A stretch of 63,930 nt of DNA from a virus: positions 1-63,930 of IMG/VR virus record IMGVR_UViG_3300034283_002015. The stretch is one strand, 5' to 3'. A program made the translations under genes and the position numbers. Numbering within the stretch: the stretch's first letter is position 1; the number at the start of each line of letters is the position of its first letter. The notes beneath the pieces are model-generated. The model saw only the letters and a program-made list of their open reading frames with translations. It had not been told where the DNA came from and made no database searches. Positions 1 through 49,573 of this stretch are shown piece after piece.

Positions 1-3000
1 AAGTTCCTGATAAACCTGAAGTACCGCTTGCACCTGAAGCACCTGATGTACCTGATGTACCGCTTGCTCCTGATGTTCCTGAAGCACCTGATAAACCTGA
101 AGTACCACTAGCTCCTGAAGCTCCACTTGTACCTGACGCACCTGATGTACCTGACGCACCTGATGTACCTGATGTTCCTGAAGCACCTGATGTTCCGCTT
201 GCTCCTGATATACCTGATCCGGCTACTAAACTCCAATATGTTCCGTTTGTAGGGACTATGTTTTCACTTCCTAATATGTTTATATAAGAACTTCCATTGT
301 ATGAAACAACATTGTTTGGAATGTATGAAGTTCCAGCATTGTAAGCACCTAACCAAATTAAACCTATACCTGAACGACCTGATGTACCTGAGGCACCTGA
401 TGCACCACTTGTACCTGAAGCACCTGATGTACCTGATGTACCTGAAGCACCACTTGTTCCTGAAGCACCTGATGTACCACTTAAACCTGATGTTCCGCTT
501 GCGCCTGAAGCTCCTGATGTACCTGATGCTCCTGATGTTCCTGATGCTCCTGAAGTTCCACTTAAACCTGAAATTCCTGATGTACCTGATGTTCCACTAG
601 CACCTGAAGTTCCTGAAGCACCACTTGCCCCTGATGTTCCTGAAGCACCACTTGTACCTGAAGCACCTGAAGTTCCTGATAAACCTGAAATACCTGATGT
701 ACCTGAAGTTCCACTAGCACCTGAAGTACCACTTGTTCCTGATGCGCCACTTGTACCTGAAGCTCCTGAAGTACCGCTTGCACCTGATATACCAGACCCA
801 GCTACTAATTGCCAATATGTTCCATTTGTAGGGACAACTCCTTCGCTTTGTAATATGTTTATATAAGAACTTCCATTGTATGAAACAACATTGTTTGGAA
901 TATAAGTTGTAGCGCCATTATAAGCACCTAACCAAATTAAACCTATACCTGAGCGACCTGATGTTCCTGAGGCGCCTGAAGCACCTGATGTACCTGAAGC
1001 ACCACTTGTACCTGAAGCACCGCTTGTACCTGAAGCACCTGATAAACCTGAGATACCTGAGCGACCTGATGTTCCTGAAGCACCACTTGCACCTGAAGTT
1101 CCTGAAGCACCTGATGTACCTGATAAACCTGAAGTGCCACTTGCACCTGAAGCCCCTGATGTACCGCTTGCACCTGATGTTCCTGAAGCACCTGATAAAC
1201 CTGATGTTCCTGAGGCGCCACTAGCTCCACTTGTTCCTGAAGCACCTGATGTACCTGAAGCACCTGATAAACCTGATGTTCCTGAGGCGCCACTAGCTCC
1301 ACTTGTTCCTGAAGCACCTGATGTACCTGAAGCACCTGATAAACCTGATGTTCCTGAGGCGCCACTAGCTCCACTTGTTCCTGAAGCACCTGATGTACCT
1401 GAAGCACCTGATAAACCTGATGTTCCTGAGGCGCCTGATGCACCACTAGTTCCTGAAGCTCCACTTGTTCCTGAAGCACCTGATAAACCTGATGTTCCTG
1501 AGGCGCCACTAGCTCCACTTGTTCCTGATGCACCACTTGTTCCTGATGCGCCTGATGTACCTGAAGCACCTGATGTTCCGCTTGCTCCTGATATACCGGA
1601 CCCAGCTACTAACTGCCAATATGTTGGGTTTGTAGGGACTATGTTTTCACTTCCTAATATGTTTATATAAGAACTTCCATTGTATGAAACAACATTGTTT
1701 GGAATGTATGAAGTTCCAGCATTGTAAGCACCTAACCAAATTAAGCCAATGCCTGAACGACCTGATGTTCCTGAAGCACCTGAAGCTCCACTTGTACCTG
1801 AAGCACCTGATGTACCTGATGCTCCTGATGTACCACTTAAACCTGATGTTCCGCTTGCGCCTGAAGCTCCTGATGTACCTGATGCTCCTGATGTTCCTGA
1901 TGCTCCTGAAGTTCCTGATGCTCCTGAAGTTCCACTTAAACCTGAAATTCCTGATGTACCTGATGTTCCACTAGCACCTGAAGTTCCTGAAGCACCTGAT
2001 GTACCACTTGCACCTGATAAACCTGAAATACCTGAACGACCTGATGTTCCTGAAGCTCCTGAAGCACCACTTAAACCTGAAGTTCCTGAAGCACCACTTG
2101 CACCTGATGTTCCTGATGCTCCACTTGTACCTGAAGCTCCTGATGTACCTGATAAACCTGAAATACCTGATGTACCTGAAGTTCCACTTGCTCCAGAAGC
2201 ACCACTTGTTCCTGATGCGCCACTTGTACCTGAAGCTCCTGAAGTACCGCTTGCACCTGATATACCGGACCCAGCTACTAAACTCCAATATGTTGGGTTT
2301 GTAGGAACAGTTGCTTCACTTTGTAATATGTTTATATAAGTACTTCCATTATATGAAACAACATTATTAGGAATATAAGTTGTAGCACCACTATAAGCAC
2401 CTAACCAAATTAAACCTATACCTGAGCGACCTGATGTACCTGAAGCACCTGAAGCACCACTTGTTCCTGAAGCACCTGAAGTTCCTGATGCACCTGATGT
2501 ACCACTTGCACCTGAAGTTCCACTTAAACCTGAAATTCCTGATGTACCTGATGTTCCACTAGCACCTGAAGCACCACTTGTACCTGAAGCACCTGATGTA
2601 CCTGATGCGCCACTTAGTCCTGAGATACCTGAGTTTCCTGATGTACCGCTTGCGCCTGAAGCACCTGAAGTACCGCTTGCGCCTGAAGTACCTGAAGCAC
2701 CACTTAGGCCTGAAATGCCTGAGTTTCCTGATGTACCGCTTGCGCCTGAAGCTCCACTTGTACCTGAAGCACCTGAAATACCTGATAAACCACTTATACC
2801 TGAACGTCCTGAAATACCTGATCCTGCCACTAATGACCATGAACTTGGTGTATCTGATGGAGCTGCATCATTATTATTATTTAAAGCTATATAAGAACTT
2901 CCAAGGTATGATACTAAGTCATTTGTTTGATAATTTGTAGCACTACTCCAAGAACCTTCCCAAATTAGACCTATACCTGAAAGACCAGATATACCACTTA

Positions 3001-6000
3001 GACCTGAGATACCTGAGTTGCCGCTTAAGCCTGAAATACCTGAGTTACCTGATGTACCTGAAGCACCACTTAAACCTGATATACCTGAGTTACCTGATGT
3101 ACCTGAGGCGCCACTTAGACCTGAGATACCTGAGTTGCCGCTTAAGCCTGAAATACCTGAGTTACCTGAAGCGCCTGATGTACCACTTAGACCTGAAATG
3201 CCACTTAAACCTGAGATGCCTGAGTTACCTGATGTACCTGAAATGCCTGATAAACCTGAAATACCGCTTAAACCTGATATACCTGAGCGACCTGAGATGC
3301 CTGATCCTGCTACTAAACTCCAATATGTTGGTGATTCGTTAGGTGATTGGTCTAAACTATTTTGTATCGCTATATATGTGTTTCCAAGGTATGATACTAA
3401 ATCATTAGTTTGATAGTTTGTAGCACTACTCCAAGAACCTTTCCAAATTAGACCTATACCTGAAAGACCTGAAATTCCGCTTAAACCTGATATACCACTT
3501 AGACCTGAAATGCCTGAGCGACCTGAAATACCGCTTAGACCTGAAATTCCTGAAATACCAGAAATACCACTTAAACCAGATATACCTAAAATTCCTGATA
3601 AACCTGAAATACCTGAGCGACCTGAGATGCCTGAAGCCGCTACTAGTTCCCAATATGTTGCATTTGTAGGTAAATTATTTAAGTTGCTATTTGTAATTGA
3701 TATATAAGAACTTCCATTATATGAAACTAAATCATTAATGTTATAAGTTACTTCAAAATCCCATCCTCCTGCTTTCCAATATAAACCTATACCTGATAAA
3801 CCTGAGCGACCTGAAGTACCAGATAAACCTGATATTCCTGATAAGCCTGATATACCACTTAGGCCTGAGGTACCTGATAAACCTGAAATACCTGAGTTAC
3901 CTGATAAACCTGAGATGCCACTTAGGCCTGAGATGCCTGAATTACCACTTAAGCCTGATATACCTGAAAAACCTGAAAGACCACTAACTGCTATAATAGA
4001 CCAATATGTTGGTTGAGCTGATGGAGTAGCGCTAATATTACTATCTTGTAAAGAAATATAAGAACTTCCTTGATAATAAACTATATCATTTATATTATAT
4101 AAAGTAAATGCATCCCAAGTACCTTCCCAAATTAAACCTATACCTGATAAACCTGAAATACCTGAGCGACCTGATGTTCCTGAAGCACCTGAAATACCTG
4201 AAATACCACTTAAACCTGATAAACCTGATATACCACTTAATCCTGAAATGCCACTAAAACCTGATAGACCAGATATACCACTTAAACCTGATAATCCTGA
4301 AATACCACTCAAACCACTTAAACCACTTATACCTGAAATACCTGATAAGCCTGATAAGCCTGACTCACCGCTTAATCCTGATATTCCTGAAATACCGCTT
4401 AAACCTGAAATACCACTTACACCGGATAAACCTGAAATTCCTGATATACCTGATAAACCACTTATACCTGAAGTGCCGGATAAACCTGAAATACCTGATA
4501 AACCTGATATCCCTGATTCACCGCTTAAACCAGATATTCCTGAAAGGCCGGATACACCTGAAAGTCCTGAAATACCTGATTCACCACTTAGACCTGAAAT
4601 TCCACTTATACCTGATAAACCTGATATACCTGAAAGTCCTGAAATACCTGATTCGCCACTTAAGCCTGATATTCCTGATAAACCACTAATTCCGCTTAGA
4701 CCTGATATGCCTGAAGTACCACTTAAACCTGATACTCCTGAAAGTCCTGATATACCGCTTAATCCACTTATGCCGCTTAAACCTGATAAACCAGATTCAC
4801 CTGATAAACCACTAATACCACTTAAACCTGAAATTCCTGATAAGCCTGATATACCAGATTCACCGCTTAGACCTGATATTCCTGAGAGTCCTGAAAGTCC
4901 TGATATACCTGATAAACCTGAGATACCAGATTCACCACTTAATCCACTTATACCTGAAGTACCACTTAGGCCTGATAAACCTGATTCACCACTTAATCCT
5001 GAAATACCTGATAAACCTGAAATTCCACTTGTACCTGATAGACCTGAAATACCTGAAAGTCCTGAAATACCTGATATTCCTGAAAGTCCTGATAAACCAG
5101 ATTCACCTGATAGGCCTGATACACCTGAAAGTCCTGATATACCACTTAATCCTGAAATTCCTGAGGTACCACTTAGGCCTGAGATGCCACTTTCACCACT
5201 TAATCCTGATATTCCTGAGAGTCCTGAGATACCACTTAGGCCTGAAATTCCACTTGTACCTGATAAACCTGAAATGCCTGATGTACCTGAAAGTCCTGAT
5301 ATTCCTGACTCGCCGCTTAATCCTGAGATGCCACTTAAACCACTTATACCTGAAATACCTGATAAGCCTGAGATACCTGATGTACCTGAAAGTCCTGATA
5401 TTCCTGACTCGCCGCTTAATCCTGAGATGCCACTTAAACCACTTATACCTGAAATACCTGATAAGCCTGAGATACCTGATGTACCGCTTAATCCACTTAT
5501 ACCTGATGTACCACTTAAACCTGAAATGCCACTTAAACCTGAAAGTCCTGAAATACCTGAAGTGCCACTTAGTCCTGATAGACCTGATTCACCGCTTAAT
5601 CCACTTATACCTGAAAGTCCTGATATTCCTGATAAACCTGAAATACCAGATTCACCACTTAAGCCTGAAGTGCCACTTAATCCTGAAATTCCGCTTGTAC
5701 CTGATAAGCCTGAAATGCCTGAAGTACCACTTAATCCACTTATACCACTTAAACCTGATAAACCAGATTCACCTGATAGACCTGAAGTGCCACTTAAACC
5801 AGATAAACCTGATAGACCTGAAGTCCCACTTAAACCAGATAAACCTGATTCACCGCTTAAACCTGAAATTCCGCTTGTACCTGAAAGTCCTGATAAGCCA
5901 CTTTCGCCTGATAATCCTGATATTCCACTTAAACCAGAAATGCCACTTGTACCACTTAATCCACTCACACCACTTAAACCTGAAATACCTGAGTCACCAT

Positions 6001-9000
6001 TTAGGCCTGATATACCTGATAATCCTGAGATGCCTGATAAGCCTGAAATACCTGAAGTACCACTTAAACCAGATAAACCTGATTCACCGCTTAAACCTGA
6101 AATACCGCTTGTACCTGATAAACCTGAAATACCACTTAAACCAGAAATGCCTGACTCGCCTGATAAACCACTAATTCCGCTTAAACCTGAGATGCCACTT
6201 GTGCCACTTAATCCTGAAATTCCTGAATCACCATTTAGGCCTGATATACCTGAAGTACCACTTAAACCAGATATTCCTGATAAACCTGAAGTACCACTTA
6301 ATCCACTTATACCTGAAAGTCCTGATAAACCAGATTCACCTGATAGGCCTGATATACCTGAAAGTCCTGATGTACCACTTAATCCTGAAATTCCTGAGAT
6401 GCCACTTAAGCCTGATAAACCACTTTCACCTGATAAACCTGAGATACCTGAAGTACCACTTAATCCACTTATGCCATTTAAACCGGATAAGCCACTTTCG
6501 CCTGATAAACCTGAGATGCCGCTTAAACCAGATGTACCTGATATTCCTGATAAGCCTGAGGTGCCACTTAAGCCTGAAAGTCCTGATAAGCCACTTTCAC
6601 CTGATAATCCTGATATTCCACTTAAACCTGAAGTACCACTTGTACCACTTAATCCACTTGTACCACTTAGACCTGATATACCGCTTAAACCACTTATACC
6701 TGATATACCTGATATACCACTTAATCCTGAAATACCACTTAAACCTGATAAACCTGATTCACCTGATAGACCTGAAGTTCCTGATAAACCAGAGATGCCT
6801 GATATGCCTGAAAGACCTGATAAGCCTAACTCACCACTTAAACCTGAAATTCCACTTGTACCTGATAAGCCTGAAGTACCTGATAAGCCTGAGATGCCAC
6901 TTAAGCCTGAAAGACCTGATGTACCTAAAAGTCCTGATAAACCAGATTCACCTGATAAACCTGAAATGCCACTTAAGCCTGAAATACCTGATAAGCCTGA
7001 AATACCTGAAGTACCACTTAATCCTGAAATACCGCTTGTACCTGATAAACCTGATAAACCACTTTCACCTGATAAACCTGATATACCTGAAGTACCACTT
7101 AAACCTGAGAGACCTGAATCTCCACTTATACCTGATAAACCAGATATACCTGAAAGTCCTGAGATGCCTGAAGTGCCACTTATACCTGATATACCTAAAA
7201 GACCTGATATACCTGATAAACCTGAAGTGCCACTTAAACCACTTATACCTGATGTGCCGCTTAAACCTGAAAGTCCTGAGTCACCTGATAAGCCTGAGAT
7301 GCCATTTAAACCAGAAATACCACTTGTACCTGATAAACCTAAAAGACCACTTAAACCTGATGTACCTGAAAGACCTGATATACCATCTATACCAGAAAGT
7401 CCTGATAAACCGCTTAAACCTGAGGTACCTGACATACCTGAAAGTCCTGATATACCTGATGTACTTATACCACTTAAACCAGATAAACCGGAAAGTCCTG
7501 AAGTTCCATCTATGCCTGAAAGACCTGATATACCGCTTAAACCTGATGTACCTAATAAACCTGAAAGTCCTGATGAGCCGCTTAATCCTGAAAGACCTGA
7601 GTCTCCATTTAATCCTAAAATACCACTTATACCACTTAAACCTGAAATTCCTGAGTCACCGTTTAGACCTGAAATTCCTGATAAACCTGAAATACCAGAC
7701 AATCCTAAAATACCTGATAGGCCTGAAGTACCACTTAGACCAGAAATACCTGAATCTCCAATAGTACCATTTGTACCGCTTAATCCTGAAATACCTGATG
7801 TGCCATTTAAACCTGAAATACCTGAATTTCCAATTAAACCAGATATACCTGAAGCTCCTTCTAAACCTGAAATTCCTGAAGTACCATTTGTACCATTTGT
7901 ACCTGATAAACCACTTATACCTGACTGACCTAATAAACCTGAAGTACCTTCTAAACCTGAAATTCCTGAAGTACCATTAATACCACTTAAACCAGAAATT
8001 CCTGAATTACCTAAAAGTCCTGAAATGCCTGAAGCTCCTTCTAAACCTGAGATGCCTGAAGTACCATTTGTACCATTAATACCACTTAGTCCTGATATAC
8101 CTGATATACCTATAGTACCTGATAAACCTGAAATACCTGAATTGCCTTCTAAACCTGAAATTCCTGAAATTCCATTAATACCACTTAAACCAGAAATTCC
8201 TGAATTACCTAAAAGTCCTGAAATGCCTGAAATACCATTTATACCTGAAATACCTTCTAAACCTGATATTCCTGAAGTTCCATTTGTACCATTTGTACCT
8301 GAAAGTCCTGAAATACCACTTAATCCTGAAGTACCTAAGATACCACTTAATCCTGAGATGCCTGAGTCACCATTTAGACCTAACAAACCTGATAAACCAC
8401 TTATACCTGAAGTTCCTAATGTACCTGATAAACCTGAAAGTCCTGATGTACCTTCAAGACCTGAAAGACCGGATGTACCATTTGTTCCATTTGTTCCTGA
8501 TAAACCAGATAAACCTGAAGTACCTAATATACCACTTAAACCTGATAAACCTGATGTACCATTTAATCCACTTAAACCTGATGTACCTTCAAGACCTGAA
8601 ATACCTGAAGTTCCGTTTGTACCGGATAAACCACTTAGACCTGAAGTTCCAGTGCCACTTAAGCCTGATAAACCACTTGTGCCTTCTAAACCACTTAGAC
8701 CTGAAGTACCATTTGTACCACTTGTTCCTGATAAACCTGAGAGACCTGATGTACCAGTACCACTTAATCCACTTAGGCCAGATATACCTTCTAAACCTGA
8801 AAGTCCTGAGGTACCATTTGTTCCTGATAAACCTGAAAGTCCTGAGGTACCATTAGTTCCTGAGAAACCACTTATACCAGATAAACCACTTATACCTTCT
8901 AAGCCACTTATACCTGATGTACCAATTGTACCACTTAATCCACTTATACCTGAAGTTCCAGTTCCACTAAGACCTGAAAGACCAGATGTACCTTCTAAAC

Positions 9001-10174
9001 CAGATAAACCTGATAAGCCTGATAAGCCTGATAAGCCTGATAAACCAGTTCCTGAAAGACCAGATAAACCTGAGGTTCCAGTACCACTAAGACCTGAAAG
9101 TCCTGAAAGTCCTGTTCCACTAAGACCAGAAATTCCTGATGTACCTTCTAAACCTGATAAACCTGAAATTCCGTTTATACCTGATAAACCGCTTAAACCA
9201 GAAGTGCCAGTACCACTTAAACCTGAAAGTCCTGATGTACCTAATATGCCACTTAGACCTGATGTACCTTCAAGACCTGAAAGACCGGATGTACCATTTG
9301 TTCCTGATAAACCTGAAAGTCCTGAAGTACTAGTACCACTAAGACCTGAAAGACCAGATGTACCTTCTAAGCCTGAAAGACCAGATGTACCATTAGTACC
9401 ATTAGTACCTGAAAGACCTGAAAGTCCTGATATACCTGTACCACTTAGGCCTGATAAACCACTTAAGCCTTCTAAACCTGAGAGTCCTGAGGTACCATTT
9501 GTACCATTAGTTCCTGATAAACCACTTAGACCTGATGTACCAGCTCCTGACAAACCAGATAAACCTGAAGTTCCAGTACCACTAAGACCTGAAAGTCCTG
9601 ATAAACCTTCTAAACCAGAAAGACCTGAAGTTCCATTAGTTCCTGAAAGACCGCTCAAACCAGAAGTTCCTGTTCCACTTAAACCACTTAGACCTGAAGT
9701 TCCTGTACCACTTAAACCAGATAAACCACTTATACCTTCTAAACCTGATAAACCTGAGGTACCATTAGTTCCTGATAAACCGCTTAATCCTGAGGTGCCA
9801 GTTCCACTTAATCCTGATAAACCTGAAGTGCCAGTACCACTTAAACCTGATAAACCTTCTAAACCTGAAAGTCCTGATGTACCATTTATTCCTGATAAAC
9901 CACTTATACCAGATGTTCCAGCGCCACTTAGTCCTGAAATACCTGATGTACCTGTTCCTGATAAACCTGAAATACCTGAGGTGCCAGTACCACTTAAGCC
10001 TGAAATACCTGAGGTGCCAGTACCACTTAAACCTGAAAGACCTGATAAACCTGAAAGTCCAGATGTACCAATTCCACTACTACCTCCTGAAGTAGGTACT
10101 TCAAAAGAAGCTATAGATACTTGATCTAAAAATCGTACATTGTTTCTTGGTATGGAGTTATTGATTCTGGCCAT
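1..10174 (-). CDS. giant collagen-like (Gly-X-Ser) tail fibre with carbohydrate-binding-like modules, 3' end beyond window
   Basis: Reading the minus strand from ATG 10174-10172, the frame stays open to the left edge: 3391 codons with no stop. Residues 1-33 are non-repetitive ([15 protein letters not shown]...). From about residue 34 the protein is Gly-X-Y triplets with Y mostly Ser and X mostly Leu, Ile, Thr, Ala or Glu. I saw no Pro in the triplets. The first ~1975 residues are almost pure triplets; after that, eight ~50-residue modules with spaced Trp/Tyr residues interrupt them. The start overlaps the upstream tail-terminator-like gene by 17 nt, so it belongs to the same operon. Position and architecture fit a long adhesive virion fibre that binds surface glycans; that role is inferred. 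Long proline-rich frames on the opposite strand are by-products of the repeat. I am sure of the frame and less sure of the role. Confidence 0.88.
221..370 (-). repeat. carbohydrate-binding-like module 1 of the giant fibre
   Basis: This ~50-residue insert between Gly-X-Ser blocks begins [16 protein letters not shown], continues with an [12 protein letters not shown] core and ends [10 protein letters not shown]. Spaced W/Y residues around a V-S-Y-x-G-S-S-Y core resemble the CBM5/12 (ChtBD3) chitin-binding fold. It shares nearly all positions with modules 2-4. Confidence 0.7.
800..949 (-). repeat. carbohydrate-binding-like module 2 of the giant fibre
   Basis: It has the same layout as module 1, with [28 protein letters not shown] and [10 protein letters not shown]. 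The Gly-Ala-Thr-Thr and Gln-Ser-Glu-Gly substitutions separate it from modules 1 and 3. Subfamily A. Confidence 0.7.
1191..1406 (-). repeat. three exact 72-bp tandem copies inside the fibre gene
   Basis: The unit starting cctgataaacctgatgttcc recurs at 1191, 1263 and 1335 with no differences seen, and a fourth partial copy starts at 1407. Each unit encodes eight Gly-X-Ser triplets, so gain or loss of copies keeps the frame. Confidence 0.9.
1604..1753 (-). repeat. carbohydrate-binding-like module 3 of the giant fibre
   Basis: Nearly identical to module 1, with [28 protein letters not shown] and [10 protein letters not shown]. The closeness at DNA level suggests recent duplication or gene conversion between modules 1 and 3. 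Subfamily A. Confidence 0.7.
2273..2422 (-). repeat. carbohydrate-binding-like module 4 of the giant fibre
   Basis: A subfamily A module with the same W-L-G-A-Y opening, the [10 protein letters not shown] core and the T-Y-W-S-L-V-A ending. It differs from modules 1-3 at scattered positions, so it looks older. Confidence 0.68.
2825..2977 (-). repeat. carbohydrate-binding-like module 5 of the giant fibre
   Basis: Reads [20 protein letters not shown], then LGSSYIAL and [10 protein letters not shown]. The W-x-G-x-W-x-x-x-T-x-Y-x-x-x-D-x-V-x-Y-x-G-x-x-Y spacing is the typical CBM5/12 pattern. Subfamily B, with module 6. Confidence 0.72.
3308..3460 (-). repeat. carbohydrate-binding-like module 6 of the giant fibre
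   Basis: A subfamily B module: [31 protein letters not shown] and TYWSLVAG. It is very similar to module 5 in its first half and divergent in the variable loop before the final Trp. Confidence 0.72.
3635..3793 (-). repeat. carbohydrate-binding-like module 7 of the giant fibre
   Basis: A divergent module: [31 protein letters not shown] and [10 protein letters not shown]. The extra Gly-Gly before Trp and the different loop set it apart from subfamilies A and B. Confidence 0.68.
3983..4144 (-). repeat. carbohydrate-binding-like module 8 (most N-terminal) of the giant fibre
   Basis: The first module met when reading from the N-terminus (about residues 2011-2064): [31 protein letters not shown] and [10 protein letters not shown]. 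It marks the boundary between ~2000 residues of uninterrupted triplets and the modular C-terminal part. Confidence 0.68.
5286..5483 (-). repeat. two exact 99-bp tandem copies inside the fibre gene
   Basis: Copies start at 5286 and 5385 (cctgaaagtcctgatattcc...). Each encodes eleven Gly-X-Ser triplets. This is an in-frame duplication that looks recent because no divergence is visible. Confidence 0.88.
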
Positions 10175-11030
10175 ATTGTATTTCGTTTGTTGGGTTTGTT
10201 ATTGTTGATTCTAAATTTATAATTATTTTACTCTTACTTGAAAATTTCTTGATAGAGTTTAAATCTTTTTGTAATACTTCTGGAACTATATAACCATATA
10301 CTTTAATATTAAAAGTACTTCTAACTAATCGTTCAGCGTCATTTTGTAATTCTGTTACTGTATTAAATGTATCAATACGAGTTTGGAATTGAAATTGTTC
10401 TGGGTTACCCCAATACGCATCTGAAGCATATTCAATTGCTTCTACTATTTTATTTAATTGTTCTACATAGTAAGTAAATACTACACAACTATAAGTTAAT
10501 GTTAAGTAATCAGGTACTACTGAAGCATAATATGTAGTAGTTGGTATTCTGTTAGTTAAAACATTAAAATTACTATATATATTACTTGGAGAGTATTGTT
10601 TTTCTGTTACTGTATAGTTGTTAGGTCTATTAGCATCTAATTTATTAGCTACAGTCCTATTTTTTTCTATACTATCTCTTTTAAACATAATAAGTGGAGC
10701 CATAATAGCACCGTTTACATCTCTATAATAACCATCCTTTTGATATGATTTCCATTTTTCAGGTGAACCATATATAACAGGAACTTCTATTCTTTCTTCA
10801 TTTTGCACTACAAAAGGTTTAATAACATTTTGAAAATAATACATAATAGCTCCATCAATATCTTGAAGACTAATACTAAATGGTTTAGTATTATCATTTC
10901 TAAAAGAAGTTTGTGTAGCTCTATTAGGATTATTAGACTTATTAGGGTTACCTCTTTCAACATCAAAAGGTACTTGTTGATCTACAAGTATCTCTTTTTG
11001 TGTTTTAGGTATAGGTATTCTTCCAGCCAT
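10158..11030 (-). CDS. tail terminator / sheath-stabiliser-like protein (gp15-like)
   Basis: 290 residues, close to T4 gp15 (272). It has a conserved-looking block around residues 150-185 ([20 protein letters not shown], then [18 protein letters not shown]) that I associate with a neck or tail-completion protein of T4-like phages encoded next to the gp14 homologue. It follows the gp14-like gene directly: its ATG at 11030 touches the end of that gene. Its last 17 nt overlap the giant fibre start. No signal peptide or membrane segment is visible. The gp15 assignment rests mainly on size and gene order; it could be another connector such as a gp3-like terminator. Confidence 0.55.
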
Positions 11031-11579: not shown

Positions 11580-12800
11580 TTATGCTATATAAATTACCAT
11601 TGGTACTTGATTTATTTCTGTTACACGTGCTGCTGATTCAGCTGCTCTTCTTTCAAGCAATGCTTGACGTGAAGTTTGATCAAAATATTCTCTTAATCTT
11701 AAAATTAAAGCATCTTTAGTAGCTGTAGCTGAAGATAATAAATCTTGTTGATTTAAAGTTACTTCAGCATTAGGAATAGGAACAGTACTATATTTTCCTC
11801 TAACATATCCTAATATTTCTTTAGTTAATGCTAAAGTGTATTCATATATCCAACTTCTACCTACTGAATTTAAAGCATTATAATTTGGATTAGTATAAGG
11901 TACATTTGATGTGTTAGTAATTTTATTTGTACCATCTCCAAACGCTGAATCTAATCTTTCTTGTAATGAAACATATTCAAAATTTAAATACATTCCGTAA
12001 TCTAAATTATTATCCATTTCTTCATTAAAAAATCCAGTTCCAGGAACTGGAAACACTGAGATTACATTATTTGTAATTTCAAAAGTATAATTAGATAAGG
12101 TTATAGTGTTTTGCATCTCAATAGCTTGAATAGTTTGAGCTGTAAAACTTGTAGGCATCATTAAATAATTTGTATAACCCATACCTAAACCATAAGCACC
12201 AGCCGCTGGGACTCCGCCTAAACCTCCTGCCATTGTTCCTAAGAAAGGAGCAAACATTTGAGATACAGCTGGAGGTGGTTGGTAAAATACTCTTTTAATT
12301 TCAATTCCACCTACAATACCTTGAGACTCAGCCCAAGCTTTTAAATCATATCTTTGTACTCCTGGAATTAAAGTTAATCTACCTTTTCTCCAAGTAACGT
12401 TACCTCCTGAACCTGCTTCTTCTCCATATTGTTCAGATAATCTAACAATATTAGCCATTGAAGGAGTAATTAATGCATTATCAGCATCAATAGAAGTTGA
12501 AGCTCCTTCAAATGTAAGATAATTATCTCTAGTTAAAAAAGCATATAATTCATTTCCATATGTAGTAACTGCTTCTTCAAAAGCAGCATATATGTTAATA
12601 TCTTGAAGTTCAATATCCATAATAGGATATCCTAATCTACGAGTAACAAACATAGCTACACTATCAGCGTCTGTTTTAAATTGAGTCTCATTATCATAAA
12701 ATCCAAACGGAGTAGGAGGAATTCCTGATGAAGGAGTATTATAATAAGATGCTGATACTTGAGCAAATGAACTAGAACCAGGCCAAATAGGTATATTCAT
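11580..12800 (-). CDS. neck / head-completion protein gp13-like
   Basis: 406 residues. Residues ~45-90 (VAMFVTRRLGYPIMDIELQD, INIYAAFEEAVTTYGNELYAF) carry the R-R-L-G-Y-P...F-E-E-A signature of connector proteins in marine T4-like phages. A Gly/Ala-rich hydrophobic stretch (MAGGLGGVPAAGAYGLGMGY) is in the middle and a basic helix near the C-terminus (QALLERRAAESAARV). It is longer than T4 gp13 (309). Gene order (gp13-, gp14- and gp15-like) supports a role at the head-tail joint. Confidence 0.6.
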   Translation of the reverse strand: MNIPIWPGSSSFAQVSASYYNTPSSGIPPTPFGFYDNETQFKTDADSVAMFVTRRLGYPIMDIELQDINIYAAFEEAVTTYGNELYAFLTRDNYLTFEGASTSIDADNALITPSMANIVRLSEQYGEEAGSGGNVTWRKGRLTLIPGVQRYDLKAWAESQGIVGGIEIKRVFYQPPPAVSQMFAPFLGTMAGGLGGVPAAGAYGLGMGYTNYLMMPTSFTAQTIQAIEMQNTITLSNYTFEITNNVISVFPVPGTGFFNEEMDNNLDYGMYLNFEYVSLQERLDSAFGDGTNKITNTSNVPYTNPNYNALNSVGRSWIYEYTLALTKEILGYVRGKYSTVPIPNAEVTLNQQDLLSSATATKDALILRLREYFDQTSRQALLERRAAESAARVTEINQVPMVIYIA

Positions 12801-14215: not shown

Positions 14216-15892
14216 TTAAATAGTATTTAATCCTTGGATATAGATCTTACCATAAAATTCTGGTCTTAACATTTTCTTAGCGTAACGAGTTAATAAACCT
14301 TTACGTGGAGTAAATGTATCTGGATCGTACACAAGTGGAGTCATAATTAATGGAACATATGGAGCAAATACAGCACCAGCTTCTAAGAATTGTGAACCTC
14401 TGTAACCTAATAACATGATATTTTCAGTCATGTAAGGGTTTTTGTAAACTGTGTAACGGCCATTTAATTGACCTGCTTTTTGTACACCGAAAGCGTATTC
14501 CATTTGAGCAGCATCACCATTGTTGTTAGAAGCAAATCCTGGGATTGATTCTAATACTGTAGCTACAGTTGGAGATGTAACGATGAAGTTAGCACCACCT
14601 CTTAAAGTTAATTGGTGAATTTTGTTGCTTAATTTTTGGATTTTAGTTCCTAAAGTTTGGAACCATTGGCCTTGTGTGTTGTAGAACGCTGAACCAGCTG
14701 TTGAGAAAGTAGCTGTAGCTGGGTTGTAAACGTTGTTGTTAACTGTTGACCAGTACTCAGTACCCGCAGCAGCATCTTCGATCAACATATCTAAGATTTC
14801 AAGATCAATTTCCATTGAAATGTACTCAGACATGATGTTTGTTACTTCAGCTTCAGCATCAATGTTTTGGTAAGCAGCTAAATCTTGTGAGAATTCAGGT
14901 GTCCATACTGCTTTCAATTTTTTAGTTTTAGCAGTGATGGCTTGTGATTGCATTTTAACATTAATCTCAGGAATAACGATAGATGAGTTATCTTGAGCAT
15001 TTGGAACTGCGAATGATGACGAATCTTCAAAATCACCTACGTTATACGGGCTCATTTGAGTAGCTTTGTTATACAAAATTGTATAAGCACCTGAGTTAGC
15101 AATTGTAGCTGAAGAAGCACTCACAAAGAATGTAATAGTGTTGTTTGTGTAATCAAATGTAGTAAACTGTTGTAAGTTATTAGCAGCAGTAATAGCTGAA
15201 CCTGATAAAATTAAGAAACCTCTAACAGCATCCATATCAAATGAAGGGATGTTTGTAGAAGCAGTTACTAATGTGATTGCTTTGATTTGACCTGCAGCAA
15301 CTGAAGCTGAGTAATCTGAATCAAAGTTAGTTGTAGCTAACGTACCTGAAACGATAAGTGAACCAGTTGCAATTGTGATTGCCGATGATGAGAATTGGTT
15401 GGTAGAGTAAGTGAAACGACCTGTTCCGTATAAACCACCTGATGGTGCTGGAGTTGCAAACGGGAATTCACCTGTTGCATTTCTGTTACCATACAATGAA
15501 CTACCTACTGCAAATGGATCTTTAGCTGTTCCGTATTGGAAGTCTAAGAAGAACACAAGACCTGAAGGCATTGACATTGGTTGAACTGAAACAAATTCTT
15601 TTGCTGCAATTTGAGCAAATACTTTACGTACTAAAGGTAAAGCAATACCAGCCCAGTTTTCTGATTGACCAACAGAGAATGAACCTGCTGATGAACCTCC
15701 ACCTGTATCTGATTGTTCCATAACTAATTGCTTAGCTTGGTTTTCTAATAATAAAGACATGTTGTTTGCCTCTACATTTGTTAAGCCTTCTAATAGACCC
15801 GTTTTGTTCCATTTAGAAGACAATTTAGCTGCATCGCTTTGGAGTGATTTCCAAGGACTAGCTGATTCTAATAATGATTGAATTGTGCTCAT
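14216..15892 (-). CDS. 23: major capsid protein gp23
   Basis: 558 residues against 521 in T4. The N-terminus (MSTIQSLLESASPWKSL...) resembles the T4 gp23 propeptide. A probable maturation site for the gp21-type protease is VME59|Q60 just before SDTGGGSSAGSF, matching T4 cleavage after residue 65. FVSVQPMSMPSGLVFFLDFQ corresponds to the gp23 block containing VQPMNSPTG. The C-terminal TPLVYDPDTFTPRKGLLTRY and the closing GKIYIQGL also fit the family. It forms the head shell. It lies 28 nt after the scaffold gene and ends at a strong terminator, as expected for the most abundant late transcript. There is no Shine-Dalgarno; the leader is a run of A and T. Confidence 0.95.
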   Translation of the reverse strand: MSTIQSLLESASPWKSLQSDAAKLSSKWNKTGLLEGLTNVEANNMSLLLENQAKQLVMEQSDTGGGSSAGSFSVGQSENWAGIALPLVRKVFAQIAAKEFVSVQPMSMPSGLVFFLDFQYGTAKDPFAVGSSLYGNRNATGEFPFATPAPSGGLYGTGRFTYSTNQFSSSAITIATGSLIVSGTLATTNFDSDYSASVAAGQIKAITLVTASTNIPSFDMDAVRGFLILSGSAITAANNLQQFTTFDYTNNTITFFVSASSATIANSGAYTILYNKATQMSPYNVGDFEDSSSFAVPNAQDNSSIVIPEINVKMQSQAITAKTKKLKAVWTPEFSQDLAAYQNIDAEAEVTNIMSEYISMEIDLEILDMLIEDAAAGTEYWSTVNNNVYNPATATFSTAGSAFYNTQGQWFQTLGTKIQKLSNKIHQLTLRGGANFIVTSPTVATVLESIPGFASNNNGDAAQMEYAFGVQKAGQLNGRYTVYKNPYMTENIMLLGYRGSQFLEAGAVFAPYVPLIMTPLVYDPDTFTPRKGLLTRYAKKMLRPEFYGKIYIQGLNTI

Positions 15893-17150: not shown

Positions 17151-17744
17151 TTATTTACAATTACACTTAAACGTGTTTAAGTCTTTTGATGTAGGGGCAA
17201 TGTTAAGAAAATAATAACAATACTTAGTGTTACCTACTTTTAATTCTTTATAGAATCCTTTAGGTATTGCCGCGTTTGTAGGTACACGTTTAGGTACTTT
17301 ATCGTAATCTAATCTAACATATACTGATACAGTAGTTGTTTTTGCTTGTTCACGTTCCCATATTTCTAATGCTTTCCAAGGACCACGATTAAGTGATTGT
17401 TGTTGCATTGCTGAATTAATATAGGTAAATGTTGAGTATAACATTTCTTTAGTACAGTTAAATGAAGCAGCAGGAGCAATATGTCCTTTGTCCCACTCAT
17501 TATTAACATAATCTTCGTTATCAGATGTTTTAATGTTTTTGTCTGTGTAGAATTCCATACCTGCTCTAGAAGCGGTACCTGTAGGACATTTAACAGTATA
17601 AGTAACCCATTTAGGTTGTTCTAAAATTTCAGAATATACAATACGAAAGTTAGGAGTTTGATAGTTAACACTATCTCTTAATTTAGTTTGTCCAAAAACT
17701 ACTGTTGATAGGCAAACTAATATTACTAGAAATAAATTTTTCAT
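17151..17744 (-). CDS. secreted DNA/RNA non-specific endonuclease (Serratia nuclease family)
   Basis: 197 residues from ATG 17744, 1 nt after the gp21 stop. A longer start at 17774 would overlap gp21 and spoil the signal peptide. MKNLFLVILVCLSTVVFG|Q is a signal peptide ending before Gln, as is usual in Bacteroidota. The core has DKGHIAPAASF (the D-x-G-H motif with the catalytic His) and NSAMQQQSLNRGPWKALE, with the metal-binding Asn and the Glu of this beta-beta-alpha-metal family. The enzyme would be exported and cut nucleic acid in the periplasm or outside. Its place between prohead protease and scaffold is unusual. It could degrade host or competitor DNA at lysis, or clear DNA from debris; both are inference. 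Confidence 0.88.
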   Translation of the reverse strand: MKNLFLVILVCLSTVVFGQTKLRDSVNYQTPNFRIVYSEILEQPKWVTYTVKCPTGTASRAGMEFYTDKNIKTSDNEDYVNNEWDKGHIAPAASFNCTKEMLYSTFTYINSAMQQQSLNRGPWKALEIWEREQAKTTTVSVYVRLDYDKVPKRVPTNAAIPKGFYKELKVGNTKYCYYFLNIAPTSKDLNTFKCNCK

Positions 17745-17745
17745 G

Positions 17746-18351
17746 TTAGAATAACGGACATGATCCATTAGCACATAGAATATCAGTAATAATTGAATTA
17801 ATTTTACCGTATTGATTTGTACCTGGAGTATATGATTCGTTTAAGTTGGTTGGTTGCATCCATGAACCAGGATTAGAAGGTGTTGAAACAAAATCCCAAC
17901 ATAGTAATTCAAAGTCATCTTGTACTTCCATTACATTACCTTTTTGTTCTAACGAACCCATTCCTCTTGATGATACACCTACTGTAATACCACTTTCAAT
18001 TAATGCTTTTAAGATGTTACCAGATGGAGTAGGTAAAATTTCAATTAAACCCATTACATTATCTCCATTCCACCAGCATTTTTTAATATTATGTGAAACA
18101 TTTTTTAAGTTAATAATTGAAGAATCTGGGTGGTCTAATTCACCTAATGCTCTGTTTTCTCGAACTGATTCCATGTAGCGATCCATTTCACGTTCCCATA
18201 ATTCTTTAGCGTAATATCTACCATTACCGTTTTTTACTTCGACAGTAGCTAACACACCTTCTACTAATATGTTACCTCCAGGATTAGTTCCTTCAGTTAA
18301 CCTAACAGCTTTAGGAGAAAATAATTGTGTTTCAATTAATACTTGTCTCAT
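17746..18351 (-). CDS. 21: prohead core protease gp21
   Basis: 201 residues, close to T4 gp21 (212). It has the ELDHPD motif (catalytic His74), GVSSRGMGS (nucleophile Ser127 or Ser128) and a downstream DFELLCWDFVSTPSNPG block, all typical of the S80 / U9 prohead protease family. In T4 the enzyme cleaves capsid, scaffold and internal proteins after (L/I)-x-E. It lies upstream of scaffold and capsid with only the nuclease gene between. The many (L/I/V)-x-E leaders in this window are its likely substrates. Confidence 0.9.
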   Translation of the reverse strand: MRQVLIETQLFSPKAVRLTEGTNPGGNILVEGVLATVEVKNGNGRYYAKELWEREMDRYMESVRENRALGELDHPDSSIINLKNVSHNIKKCWWNGDNVMGLIEILPTPSGNILKALIESGITVGVSSRGMGSLEQKGNVMEVQDDFELLCWDFVSTPSNPGSWMQPTNLNESYTPGTNQYGKINSIITDILCANGSCPLF

Positions 18352-23559: not shown

Positions 23560-25136
23560 TATCGTATTAACCAACTAATGTCTTCATTTCCGCCCATACC
23601 ATTTTCTATACTATATGGGTTAGGAACACTAGAACCATACGCTCCTGTAAATCCTGTTCTGTTAACAGACATATTACTTAATGTTGCTCTAGACATTTCT
23701 AGGTTTTGTGATTTAAATCTTAATGATGTATCTCTTAAATACATTCCAATTGCAAAACTCATAATTAAGTCATCATTGTATCCTGATTGTGCTTCAGGAC
23801 GACCATTTTTCCAAATGAATACTTTCATTTCTTCTAGTAAACGTTTAGATTGAATAACAACACTTTTATCACCTATATACTCTCTAAATTTATTAACTAT
23901 TAAAGGACGAGTTTTCAGTGATGTTGTAAAACCAGGTACTAATTTTGAATTATCCATATATTGGTCAAAATAAGCATCAGCATTATTACTAGCATCACTT
24001 TTAGGTGAATAATATAAATTCTTATATCCACGTTCTTGAATTGCATCTAATGCTGACCAACCAATATTAGCATTTTCTACTACTAATAAAGCTTGGTTAT
24101 ATTCTGTAGCTAAACCAACTAAGAAAAATCCAAATTCTTTAGGTGGTAATTGACCTTTATATTCTGCTACCTGTGTATTAGATTCAACATGTATAACATG
24201 GGCTGCGGAAAAATCCTTGCCATCACCCCGTGCTACATCGGCTATAACCATATATGATTGAGTATAGTCCGCCGGTTCCCATATCCATAAGTTACGGTCA
24301 ACTCCGCGGCGTTCTAGCGGTTCTTTTATTGTGGTTTGAGATATAAATTCAATCCATTCTGAATAGAATACTGTATCACCTGAAGTACTAAAATCACAAT
24401 CACACTCTTGAGATGCTAATCTAGGATCACCTAATAATTCGTCTTGTTTTTTTCTCCATGCTTCATTTCTTTCAGGATGGACAAACCAAGGTAATTTAAT
24501 AGGTAAGAAATCGTTTTGTTGGGCTTCAGCTTTAACCCATGTTTGATGAAACCAATTACCTGTACCATAAGGAGTAGATAATACAATAGCACCACCACCC
24601 GTAGCTAAGGTTTGTTGAGCAGAAGCCCAAATTGTATCAATACCTTCAATAAATGCTGCCTCGTCAATTAATAGTAAAGATACAGCTTCAGATCTACCAG
24701 CATCACCAGCAGCTGATACTGCTTTAATTTGAGATCCGTTATTTAATCGTAATGTAAGTTTATTATTTTCGTCTGCTGTTACTTTTAACCATGATGGTAA
24801 ATTTTCATACATGAATTTTACCTTAGTTACCATGTTTTTAGCAGTTTCTTGCTTTGTAGCAATACAAAGTACGTTTTTATCTTTATGGAATAACATTAAC
24901 CATAAAGAATAACCAGCTGATAGTGTTGAAATACCTAATTGTCTTGATTTAAGTACTATACTGTATGGATTGTCTTTCCATAAATTTAATACTTTATCTT
25001 GAAATGGATATAAATTAAACATGATTCTTCCTCTTTGAGGATGTTGAATATAACAGTATTTTTTCATAAAGTGGCTTGGGTCACTCGCACACTTTACATA
25101 TTCCTGTCTTATAACTTCACGTAAGTCTTGACTCAT
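23559..25136 (-). CDS. 17: terminase large subunit gp17
   Basis: 525 residues. ATPase: Q-motif-like NLYPFQ, Walker A-like KSRQLGIST (63-71; T4-type S-R-Q-L-G-x-T/S-T) and Walker B LLLIDEA with catalytic Glu (154-160). Nuclease: VIADVARGDGKDFSA with Asp300, LVVENANIGW, and the C-terminal GYNDDLIMSFA metal ligands. It pumps DNA through the portal and cuts the concatemer. It is slightly shorter than T4 gp17 (610), lacking part of the N-terminal extension. The start overlaps the upstream spanin-like gene by 4 nt (ATGA). Confidence 0.95.
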   Translation of the reverse strand: MSQDLREVIRQEYVKCASDPSHFMKKYCYIQHPQRGRIMFNLYPFQDKVLNLWKDNPYSIVLKSRQLGISTLSAGYSLWLMLFHKDKNVLCIATKQETAKNMVTKVKFMYENLPSWLKVTADENNKLTLRLNNGSQIKAVSAAGDAGRSEAVSLLLIDEAAFIEGIDTIWASAQQTLATGGGAIVLSTPYGTGNWFHQTWVKAEAQQNDFLPIKLPWFVHPERNEAWRKKQDELLGDPRLASQECDCDFSTSGDTVFYSEWIEFISQTTIKEPLERRGVDRNLWIWEPADYTQSYMVIADVARGDGKDFSAAHVIHVESNTQVAEYKGQLPPKEFGFFLVGLATEYNQALLVVENANIGWSALDAIQERGYKNLYYSPKSDASNNADAYFDQYMDNSKLVPGFTTSLKTRPLIVNKFREYIGDKSVVIQSKRLLEEMKVFIWKNGRPEAQSGYNDDLIMSFAIGMYLRDTSLRFKSQNLEMSRATLSNMSVNRTGFTGAYGSSVPNPYSIENGMGGNEDISWLIR

Positions 25137-25522
25137 ATAACTAGTAAAATACCAACAAAAGCAATAGAACTAACTATGAACTTTAATTTGAATTTTTTTA
25201 TTTGTTTTTGGTAATCAGTAATAATATTATCTTTATATTCTAATTGTTTTTGACGATCTATATCAATTTTTTTATATAATGAAATAGATGTATCTTGATT
25301 TTTTATAATAGAATCTTGATTGTTTGTTATTGTAACTAAAATATTAACTGAATCTCTAACTACTGTGATTTGATTTTTAAGAAAATCACGTTCATTTTTT
25401 ACAATTAAAGCATTTTTTAATGTTTTAGTGGGAACTGTAACTAAATCCTCAGTTAAAAGCGTTTGTGAACTCACTAACAAGGGCATCATTAGACAAGTTA
25501 TTAATACGATTATGTTCTTCAT
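25133..25522 (-). CDS. secreted coiled-coil protein with C-terminal membrane helix, spanin-like
   Basis: 129 residues. A signal peptide (MKNIIVLITCLMMPLLVSS|Q) precedes a ~90-residue Asp/Lys/Gln-rich coiled coil. A C-terminal hydrophobic helix (LKFIVSSIAFVGILLVI) with a basic flank on its inner side follows. The gene starts inside the end of the upstream gene (74-nt overlap, different frame), as with Rz/Rz1 pairs. The topology (exported N-terminus, membrane-anchored C-terminus) recalls a unimolecular spanin, but there is no lipobox at the cleavage site. The role in outer-membrane disruption at lysis is inferred. Confidence 0.6.
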   Translation of the reverse strand: MKNIIVLITCLMMPLLVSSQTLLTEDLVTVPTKTLKNALIVKNERDFLKNQITVVRDSVNILVTITNNQDSIIKNQDTSISLYKKIDIDRQKQLEYKDNIITDYQKQIKKFKLKFIVSSIAFVGILLVI

Positions 25523-30186: not shown

Positions 30187-30792
30187 TTATTTAAAGAATG
30201 ACATATTATTATTAACAGCATATAAAAAATCTTGAGAAAATTTATAAGCTTGTTTAATTCTTTTCCCCATATATTCTTTATCACCCATAGGTTTTCCTTG
30301 GTGTACTGAATTGATAAAAGTAATTAACATATTTTTGTCTACTTCTTCTTCTTTACTTGTTGTATTGATTTTATTTAAATAAGATATAGCTATATCAGGT
30401 GTTGTACTTTTTATTGCTTTTACCATAGCATCATATGCTTGTGTATTTGACATTTTATTTATATCAGCTGTGTTTCGTTTTGCATATGAAACCGGCATTT
30501 CAGTTTTTACAACTTGCTGGATTGATTGTTTTTGGTCTTGAGAAAAACCTGGAGATGCTAACAATGATGATAATATAGCAGCAGTCATTAAGCCTTTTTT
30601 AGCATATGATTTAATTTTTTCTAATACATCATCAAATACTCCTTCATTTAATGTATTAATTATATCATCAGCTATTTTTTGCTCTTCTGGTGATAAAGTA
30701 GTTTCTTGAATATCTTCTCTATATTTACTTTCAGTAATAATCCCAGCAAGTTTTTGCATACGGATAAATTGCTCGTTTAATGGTTGCTTCAT
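30187..30792 (-). CDS. tagged protein with N-terminal MQK-AGI peptide and hydrophobic segment
   Basis: 201 residues. The leader MKQPLNEQFIRMQKLAGIIT is the tag seen also at 30795, 31059 (C-terminus), 38228 and the scaffold C-terminus. An I-T-E site follows at residues 19-21. Residues ~68-90 (GLMTAAILSSLLASPGF) are hydrophobic and then SQDQKQSIQQ. This could be a hidden signal or membrane segment exposed after leader removal. The rest is helical and Lys-rich. No enzyme motif. It ends the long internal-protein operon. Confidence 0.6.
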   Translation of the reverse strand: MKQPLNEQFIRMQKLAGIITESKYREDIQETTLSPEEQKIADDIINTLNEGVFDDVLEKIKSYAKKGLMTAAILSSLLASPGFSQDQKQSIQQVVKTEMPVSYAKRNTADINKMSNTQAYDAMVKAIKSTTPDIAISYLNKINTTSKEEEVDKNMLITFINSVHQGKPMGDKEYMGKRIKQAYKFSQDFLYAVNNNMSFFK

Positions 30793-47819: not shown

Positions 47820-48608
47820 TTATACTCCTATTTGAATTTCTGTAGGATACTGTTCAGATGATGGGCGTGGGTTTGGGTTTTCTAATTTAAATAGATTATG
47901 AATTGAATGAAATAATGTTAAATTATCTTCAATGCTACGCTCAGATTCTGCTAATTCCCAACCTTTACCTTGAATTTTTTTATTATTTTTATCAGGACCG
48001 TGTTTAGCTGATTTTAACCACAATATACCTGCACGTTCTATTTTCTCTTCAAAGTTTTCATTCCATGCTTGTGAGTAAGCAGCTAATTGTAATTCTTGAC
48101 TTGTATGTAATGATTTTGATGTTTTAATATCTACCATCCATTTTTCACCATTAATTTCAAGTACTAAATCACAAGTACCAGCATATATAAATTGGTCTGA
48201 GAATAAATGGATTTCACTCTCTATTAGAGTTGGTTTATAAGTACTCCAAAAATCATGGAATTTTAAAATCATTTTCCATACATCTAATGAATAAATAGAT
48301 GTTCCTTTCTCATCAAACCATTGTAGTTTTTCGCCTTTAAGATATCTTTCAGCGGCGTCATGTACTTGAGTACCTTCTTCAGCTGCTCTACGAGCAATAA
48401 TATCTGCGTTATGTCCTACATCTTTAAGCCAATTTTCAAAATATTTATTTTTTGGCATAAATTGTAAAATATTAGTAACAGATGGATAATAATTTCCATG
48501 TCTACTATAGAATCTACTGTCTAATATATTAACTCGTTTAGAATCTACATCCGCTTCTAAAATACGTTTAACATGTTTTTTGTTAATGTTTACATTTTTT
48601 TCTATCAT
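47820..48608 (-). CDS. PD-(D/E)XK nuclease (RecB/Cas4-like)
   Basis: 262 residues. The core GTCDLVLEINGEKWMVDIKT has the motif II Asp, the D-x-K pair (VDIKTSK) and the following Q-L-x-x-Y (LQLAAYSQAW), the standard RecB-family nuclease signature. Motif I may be the His/Glu helix around AAERYLKGEKL. Phage enzymes of this type process DNA ends during recombination-dependent replication or packaging. No Cys cluster for an Fe-S site is visible. Next to the primase with a 4-nt overlap, so it is probably a replication/recombination function. Confidence 0.85.
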   Translation of the reverse strand: MIEKNVNINKKHVKRILEADVDSKRVNILDSRFYSRHGNYYPSVTNILQFMPKNKYFENWLKDVGHNADIIARRAAEEGTQVHDAAERYLKGEKLQWFDEKGTSIYSLDVWKMILKFHDFWSTYKPTLIESEIHLFSDQFIYAGTCDLVLEINGEKWMVDIKTSKSLHTSQELQLAAYSQAWNENFEEKIERAGILWLKSAKHGPDKNNKKIQGKGWELAESERSIEDNLTLFHSIHNLFKLENPNPRPSSEQYPTEIQIGV

Positions 48609-49534: not shown

Positions 49535-49541
49535 ACCTCAT

Positions 49542-49573
49542 ATTATACGAAAGAATGGTTAAAAAGCCAAACT
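49542..49573 (-). promoter_or_regulatory. promoter of primase: AGTTTGGC, 18 nt, TATAAT
   Basis: The minus strand reads AGTTTGGC (49573-49566), 18 nt, TATAAT (49547-49542), 7 nt and ATG 49534. Same boxes and identical spacing as at 27688 and 30060. It overlaps the stop of the GIY-YIG-like gene by two bases. Confidence 0.68.

Follow-up and report, generated by a model that had tools for sequence, protein, structure and literature searches.

A giant proline-free collagen-like fibre gene in a T4-like phage, probably of Bacteroidota

The stretch of viral DNA analysed here (IMG/VR record IMGVR_UViG_3300034283_002015, positions 1 to 63,930, 63,930 nucleotides; hereafter the window) belongs to an uncultured T4-like myovirus, probably with a Bacteroidota host, and one of its genes encodes 963 Gly-X-Y triplets (at least 2,889 collagen residues). 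On balance, we favour the reading that the product of this gene is the N-terminal portion of a giant adsorption fibre, homotrimeric and collagen-like, which carries polysaccharide-binding modules and is possibly O-glycosylated. By its sequence periodicity the shaft is collagen-like, and it is a variant rather than a standard collagen.

The fibre gene and its surroundings

The fibre open reading frame starts with ATG at position 10174 on the minus strand and reaches the window edge after 3,391 amino acids with zero stops, so that the single open frame of at least 3391 residues claimed in the preliminary description is real. The longest open frame by chance is about 101 amino acids (maximum 145 in 100 shuffles), and Gly-x-x-Gly-x-x-Gly matches number 933 versus 96 by chance (maximum 132 in 100 shuffles). 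The Pfam scan gave Collagen with an E-value of about 0, and PHROG profiles matched tail fibre or collagen-like minor tail proteins; the gene product is very likely a virion fibre. Two plus-strand open reading frames of 1,226 and 699 amino acids (4248-7928 and 8025-10124) were rejected as shadow frames of the Gly-X-Y repeat. The features of the region are as follows.

2..10174, minus strand: giant collagen-like fibre gene, 3' end missing at the contig edge; Pfam Collagen in 24 stretches
10088..10174, minus strand: putative N-terminal anchor, residues 1-29, with RFLDQV motif
8648..10087, minus strand: shaft zone 1, residues 30-509; GLS/GTS, periodic GLE, 19 register slips of one residue
4145..8647, minus strand: shaft zone 2, residues 510-2010; GLS/GIS/GTS plus GES
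2..4144, minus strand: distal zone 3, residues 2011-3391; GAS/GTS triplets plus eight CBM5/12-like modules
3980..4144, minus strand: CBM5/12-like module 1, residues 2011-2065
3629..3793, minus strand: CBM5/12-like module 2, residues 2128-2182
3299..3460, minus strand: CBM5/12-like module 3, residues 2239-2292
2816..2977, minus strand: CBM5/12-like module 4, residues 2400-2453
2264..2422, minus strand: CBM5/12-like module 5, residues 2585-2637
1595..1753, minus strand: CBM5/12-like module 6, residues 2808-2860
791..949, minus strand: CBM5/12-like module 7, residues 3076-3128
212..370, minus strand: CBM5/12-like module 8, residues 3269-3321
1170..1564, minus strand: 72-bp DNA tandem, 5.5 copies, 92% match, with a 182-bp exact repeat inside
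10158..11030, minus strand: gene at neck/tail-terminator position; shares 17 bp with the start of the fibre gene
11580..12800, minus strand: head-tail adaptor (phrog_211, Ad2)
14216..15892, minus strand: T4-type major capsid protein, 55% identity to Flavobacterium phage immuto

The juxtaposition of the neck/tail-terminator gene and the fibre gene is conserved in the relatives, in which the fibre locus is fixed between the neck gene on one side and the tail sheath gene on the other, and more fibre genes come after the giant one. The RFLDQV peptide is likely to be the virion anchor, because it is conserved in the fibres of many relatives whose shafts differ, with the Gly-X-Y shaft present or absent. 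The RFLDQV N-terminus of one relative (L066) had no match among 50,697 phage records. The closest isolate, Flavobacterium phage immuto (NC_055915; capsid 55%, neck protein 51%), also has fibre genes between neck and sheath, but this interval contains no Gly-X-Y fibre, RFLDQV anchor or glycosyltransferase. The neck gene, used as a query against GTDB genomes to identify the host, gave a single distant match, to a Chthoniobacterales MAG contig, which was unusable.

The window fibre is cut before its C-terminus, and the evidence for that end is taken from complete relatives. The sister phage (L011/G024), whose neck protein is 95% identical, has a complete fibre of 3,616 amino acids with a C-terminal Peptidase_S74 domain (1.1e-14), and the same domain was found in the complete fibres of L013 (6e-14), L029 (5e-9), L055 (7.5e-9) and L060 (4e-15). 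Complete fibres in relatives reach 4,661, 4,507, 4,499 and 4,182 amino acids; judged from these intact sequences, the size of the window fibre is not a freak. The complete relatives share the S74 (endosialidase chaperone) C-terminus with other phage tail fibres, but the shaft here is collagen-like and far longer. We regard it as highly probable that the fibre is a homotrimer.

The contig L009 matches the window at 99.98% identity along 14.9 kb. It confirms the frame as far as about residue 1640, beyond which the fibre is seen in the window contig alone. L009, like the window, terminates inside the repeat, and a short-read assembly leaves the copy number of the tandem at 1170-1564 uncertain, given the exact 182-bp repeat within it. 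Both observations would suit an assembly artefact, in which repeats were collapsed or joined and neither the length nor the single frame is real. Such an artefact is, however, extremely unlikely. Besides the agreement with L009, three contigs from separate metagenomes give the same neck-to-sheath distance for each of two related species (19,995 and 13,417 bp), with 0 mismatches in the compared fibre DNA. Complete frames are found in relatives up to the maximum length given above, and synonymous codons are diverse within the repeat, with Ser encoded by both TCN and AGY.

The shaft and its fold

Long runs with Gly at every third residue give the shaft the periodicity of collagen-like (PF01391) proteins, but the Pro-rich X and Y positions of those proteins are missing. 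Ser occupies Y in 889 of the 963 triplets (92%) and Pro occurs in none, as the preliminary description had noticed. Its constant repeat phase over 10 kb is true of the DNA frame and not of the glycine register: Gly falls in all three phases (533, 267 and 163 triplets). The register shifts by a two-residue step, mostly GT|GTS, at 19 points between residues 34 and 507, and there are two five-residue gaps at residues 280 and 902. Nor is this the uninterrupted Gly-X-Ser fibre first described, given these slips and gaps and the eight non-collagen modules, of 53-55 residues each, that interrupt it from residue 2011 onward. Zone 2 contains unbroken runs of 132 and 369 triplets. In the window, charged residues occupy about 3.5% of the X and Y positions (0.1-8% in relatives), and Ser plus Thr account for 47-96% of these positions throughout the family, with Pro about 0. 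The window fibre has only two Lys residues, both within the modules, so that its triplets are Lys-free.

Collagen stability is usually explained by proline or hydroxyproline together with charge pairs, and host-guest peptide data lead one to expect that Pro-free Gly-Leu-Ser forms a triple helix only weakly. The earlier suggestion of a non-standard triple helix stands in so far as stabilisation by Pro or hydroxyproline is missing and charges are rare; its picture of a plain fibre does not, because of the modules. Collagen matches in Pfam and PDB are driven by glycine periodicity, and the vertebrate collagens among the PDB matches were rejected as homologues for this reason. Bacterial collagens (Scl, BclA; PMC8968730) likewise have Gly-X-Y without hydroxyproline, and BclA is glycosylated, but they average 19% Pro in X, against 0 of 963 triplets here.

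An architectural parallel is the E. coli prophage protein pair EPclA/EPclB (PMC3368898), which has a Gly-X-Y tail fibre shaft, C-terminal trimerisation and N-terminal attachment, as in the present family; for EPclA, a trimeric triple helix has been proven. Its collagen part, however, has 111 residues (about 30 nm), against at least 2,889 here, and is accompanied by PfN, PCoil and PfC domains. The window fibre differs from this pair in being Pro-free and in its anchor, and its relatives differ in their C-terminus and linked glycosyltransferases. PfN (PF08400) and PfC (PF06820) were absent in the Pfam scan of the window fibre, which found only Collagen and CBM_5_12, and they are absent from the complete relatives too.

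The preliminary description had offered a polyglycine-II bundle like those of S16 gp38 and snow-flea antifreeze protein, the chain folding back into packed helices. Glycine at every third residue fits polyglycine II equally well as collagen, the shaft is Pro-free, and gp38 of S16/PP01 is a glycine-rich phage fibre component as well. In gp38, however, the polyglycine-II sandwich is a small tip domain of packed helices with protruding receptor loops (PMC12892980), whereas the window fibre forms a continuous triplet rod in which up to 369 successive triplets show no turn or loop sequence. Peptidase_S74, a chaperone of homotrimeric fibres, ends the relatives' fibres, and no fold appeared when a 200-residue segment of the shaft was modelled as a monomer with AF2 (pLDDT 38), although such a result supports neither structure. 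We therefore consider the bundle very unlikely. A collagen-type triple helix is likely.

CBM5/12-like modules

The presence of CBM5/12-like modules is well supported by profile comparison. The fibre matched Pfam CBM_5_12 (PF02839) with an E-value of 1.3e-25 and 89.6 bits (curated cut-off 26.2), and seven stretches are individually significant. In the PDB, profiles matched chitinase A1 through its chitin-binding domain (1ed7, E 1.5e-4) and a phage tail fibre through a CBM-like domain (8ke9, E 0.005); the C-terminal Trp, invariant in all module copies, aligns with the Trp of 1ed7. Unlike either of these proteins, the window fibre strings eight copies, with putative ligand binding, along a collagen shaft. 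AF2 prediction of a module gave pLDDT 59, and Foldseek found no significant match to it (all E > 2, many of them SH3).

From these likenesses, the modules probably bind polysaccharide. The ligand could be chitin or another particulate polysaccharide rather than the host cell, the fibre then holding virions where particle-degrading hosts live while other fibres of the cluster recognise the host. The resemblance to the chitin-binding domain and the additional fibre genes in relatives point that way, but ordinary phage fibres, among them 8ke9 and one of Mesorhizobium phage Lo5R7ANS, carry CBM5/12-like modules as well, and the ligand here is putative; we regard this alternative as unlikely.

Linked glycosyltransferases and a proposed mechanism

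The window is without any glycosyltransferase gene, and the linkage comes from its relatives. Glycosyltransferases (PF00534, PF00535, PF01075) lie between fibre and sheath in 14 of 14 Gly-X-Y-positive contigs with a complete interval and in 0 of 7 Gly-X-Y-negative ones (Fisher p 9e-6; 5e-4 with related contigs merged). Common ancestry confounds this association, as does the shortness of the interval in the Gly-X-Y-negative phages. In mimivirus, a collagen-like protein is glycosylated by an enzyme that the virus itself encodes (PMC4691112), and, as with mimivirus L230 (glycosyltransferase/hydroxylase; PMC4691112, PMC9614988), viral glycosyltransferases are here tied to collagen-like virion proteins, in our case by gene position in relatives. 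L230 acts on Lys, however, whereas the window shaft has none in its triplets, so Ser and Thr would be the glycosylation sites. Being based on association, shaft glycosylation is conceivable but somewhat short of an even chance.

The same trimeric collagen-like fibre might instead be unglycosylated and held together by its length, a C-terminal trimer clamp and low temperature, the glycosyltransferases modifying capsid, DNA or host surface. Immuto and Mel-JY01, neither of which has a Gly-X-Y fibre from neck to sheath, carry glycosyltransferases elsewhere in their genomes that could act on other targets, and EPclA is a stable triple helix without glycosylation (PMC3368898). EPclA contains Pro, however, which the window shaft lacks, and the position of the glycosyltransferases, their co-occurrence with Gly-X-Y fibres and a Ser/Thr content of up to 96% of X/Y positions (in G033) also argue against this alternative. 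It is a serious contender that we nevertheless hold to be less than probable.

In the favoured reading of a giant trimeric adsorption fibre, an S74-type domain would nucleate the trimer, starting at the C-terminus, and three chains would wind into a triple helix, whose length would be at least roughly 0.84 µm were the whole shaft to adopt this form. Linked phage enzymes may attach O-glycans to the densely spaced Ser/Thr residues of the shaft; glycan hydration would then substitute for Pro/hydroxyproline and charge pairs as stabiliser and keep the hydrophobic Leu/Ile/Ala-Ser rod soluble. The modules would provide weak, reversible, multivalent binding to polysaccharide of the host surface or of particles.

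A wider proposal, tentative and rather doubtful, is that widespread uncultured T4-like phages build proline-free, mucin-like collagen fibres (0.2-1.2 µm extended), O-glycosylated and in some cases sulfated or methylated by enzymes encoded beside the fibre, with glycan as a third triple-helix stabiliser and the fibre as a multivalent adsorption tether exceeding virion length. No phage collagen fibre with linked glycosyltransferases was found in the literature searched, which was mostly open-access. If the glycosyltransferases modify the fibre, glycan-stabilised collagen would have a separate evolutionary origin in phages, distinct from those in animals and giant viruses. With about 0% Pro, few charges and chains of up to 1,400 triplets, the family puts the requirements of a triple helix directly to the test, and a near-micrometre fibre would alter the distance at which phage and cell first make contact.

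Open frame, composition and zoning of the shaft

Among collagen-like phage fibres, that of the window is real and unusual. Its minus-strand frame proved to be stopless, as the preliminary description had claimed; the C-terminus is absent because the contig ends there, the window being the entire IMG/VR record (63,930 bp).

10174 (ATG) to window edge, minus strand: giant fibre frame, open without stop, 3,391 aa
Residues 30–509: shaft zone 1, 19 register slips, mostly GT|GTS; periodic GLE
Residues 510–2010: shaft zone 2, Leu/Ile and GES; unbroken runs of 132 and 369 triplets
Distal: shaft zone 3, GAS/GTS-rich
10158–11030: neck-position protein, 17-bp overlap with the fibre start

Frame and glycine repeat are beyond chance: Gly-x-x-Gly-x-x-Gly occurs 933 times against 96 expected, and the longest open frame in shuffled sequence is 101 aa. 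Glycine is encoded by GGT, GGA and GGC, and serine by TCN and AGY alike; this mixture points to selection keeping the repeat at the protein level, not the DNA level. The 963 Gly-X-Y (GXY) triplets in the window have Leu (349), Thr (219), Ile (215), Ala (107) and Glu (27) at X, and Ser (889), Asn (34) and Glu (18) at Y, with zero Pro, confirming the reported Ser-dominated, proline-free composition. The repeat phase, however, is not constant as had been stated: glycines are split 533/267/163 among phases, because the shaft is zoned and has register slips. Zoning and CBM5/12-like modules had both been missed. Pfam finds CBM_5_12 (E 1.3e-25, seven stretches) alongside Collagen; alignment gives eight copies with an invariant Trp in each, confined to the distal 1,400 residues, with roughly 57–216 collagen residues between neighbours.

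Assembly support and complete fibres in relatives

A separate metagenome record, L009, is 99.98% identical to the window across 14.9 kb and supports the fibre protein up to about residue 1640, L009's own contig end; beyond this the fibre is that of the window contig alone. At 1170–1564 a 72-bp tandem holds a 182-bp exact repeat, so that its copy number is uncertain and may be wrong in the assembly. Fibre lengths of relatives are reproducible: for one species three contigs each give 19,995 bp from neck-position gene to tail sheath gene, and for a second three each give 13,417 bp, with zero mismatches in compared fibre DNA among same-species contigs.

Complete fibre lengths in relatives (aa)
L010 2,357; L012 1,829; L013 2,176; L029 1,792; L055 2,034
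L060 2,269; L064 2,568; L066 2,756; L038 2,732; L071 2,918
G024 (= L011) 3,616; G033 4,182; G020 4,499; G026 4,507; G013 4,661

The neck protein of G024 is 95% identical to the window's. Several complete fibres end in Peptidase_S74, and island domains vary (CBM5/12-like in L012 and L024, other inserts elsewhere). The triplets of all relatives compared are nearly devoid of Pro, while Ser+Thr make up 47–96% of X/Y positions and charged residues 0.1–8%. The L010 and L029 fibres share their beginning, including an inserted domain at 397–464, followed by unlike shafts and C-termini, a pattern that points to modular exchange of the distal part between near-identical phages. In several relatives (L010 17980, L012 16443, G020, G012) one to three extra GXY fibre genes come after the giant fibre, with other N-termini, e.g. 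KLRRSS..ELAINTNDGK. At L029 8223–10393, after fibre and glycosyltransferases (GTs), lie homologues of window genes 49572–50030, 48605–49534 and 47820–48608, which in the window sit away from the fibre (47820–50030); this is a rearrangement or a mis-join.

Glycosyltransferases and a candidate stabilisation

In the favoured mechanism a C-terminal chaperone probably trimerizes the fibre into a triple-helical rod, and distal modules would provide multivalent weak binding. The more novel, testable reading of the window fibre is a glycan-stabilised, very long collagen, with Ser/Thr glycosylation standing in for proline. Glycosylated Ser/Thr is a natural candidate for this replacement, since BclA (PMC8968730) and mimivirus collagen (PMC4691112) are glycosylated; the glycosylation site must differ from that of mimivirus, because the window triplets contain no Lys. 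With the rise of 0.29 nm per residue applied to EPclA (PMC3368898), the 2,889 collagen residues of the window predict about 0.84 µm, and relatives up to 1.2 µm (G026).

Between fibre and tail sheath, relatives encode GT1 (PF00534), GT2 (PF00535), GT9 (PF01075) and FkbM methyltransferases. GTs are present in all 14 non-redundant GXY contigs with a complete neck-to-sheath interval (G016 on GT9 alone, scoring 22.3 bits where the cut-off is 22), and in none of seven intervals without GXY (G017, G018, G019, G034, Flavobacterium phage immuto (NC_055915), Mel-JY01 and LR756508); immuto and Mel-JY01 have GTs outside the interval. The linkage (Fisher p 9e-6; 5e-4 after merging related contigs) is an association, the counts including shared ancestry. 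Two relatives carry further enzymes in the stretch from fibre to sheath:

L055 17540–20175: sulfotransferase (PF13469), one ORF, APS kinase, cytidylyltransferase-like gene; directly behind the complete GXY fibre
L093 10453–11694: 2OG-Fe(II) oxygenase (PF13640) and DUF6445; adjoining GXY fibres and GTs

Judging from these genes, a sulfated glycan on the L055 fibre is possible. Fibres beside the oxygenase genes have triplets without Pro and without Lys. Genes similar to the L093 pair also occur in L112 (G020).

Neighbourhood, host and anchor

Head and neck genes of T4 type lie upstream of the fibre: terminase, protease, gp23-like capsid, PhoH and head-tail adaptor. A Bacteroidota host is suggested by the closest isolate, immuto, with 55% identity in the capsid and 51% in the neck protein. 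Of neck, tail and baseplate as possible seats of the fibre, its gene place between neck gene and sheath hints at the neck or upper tail. In most of the 80 loci retrieved, from 414 neck-protein relatives in IMG/VR, a protein starting M-A-x-(V)-RFLDQV follows the neck protein. Behind this anchor stands a giant GXY fibre, a 350–450-aa non-collagen fibre or just a ~100-aa protein, and the anchor is thus a module in its own right; it had zero matches among 50,697 phage records searched.

Two small window ORFs (17151–17774 and 25133–25522) have signal-peptide-like starts, and these leader sequences close with FGQT / VSSQT, as in exported proteins of Bacteroidota. Otherwise unlike window proteins (30187–30792 and 38228–40351; also 25786, 31059, 34354, 36340 and 43031) have in common an N-terminal peptide, either MKxxLNEQxxRMQKLAGII or MKxLxxLIKEx, which may direct proteins into the head during packaging.
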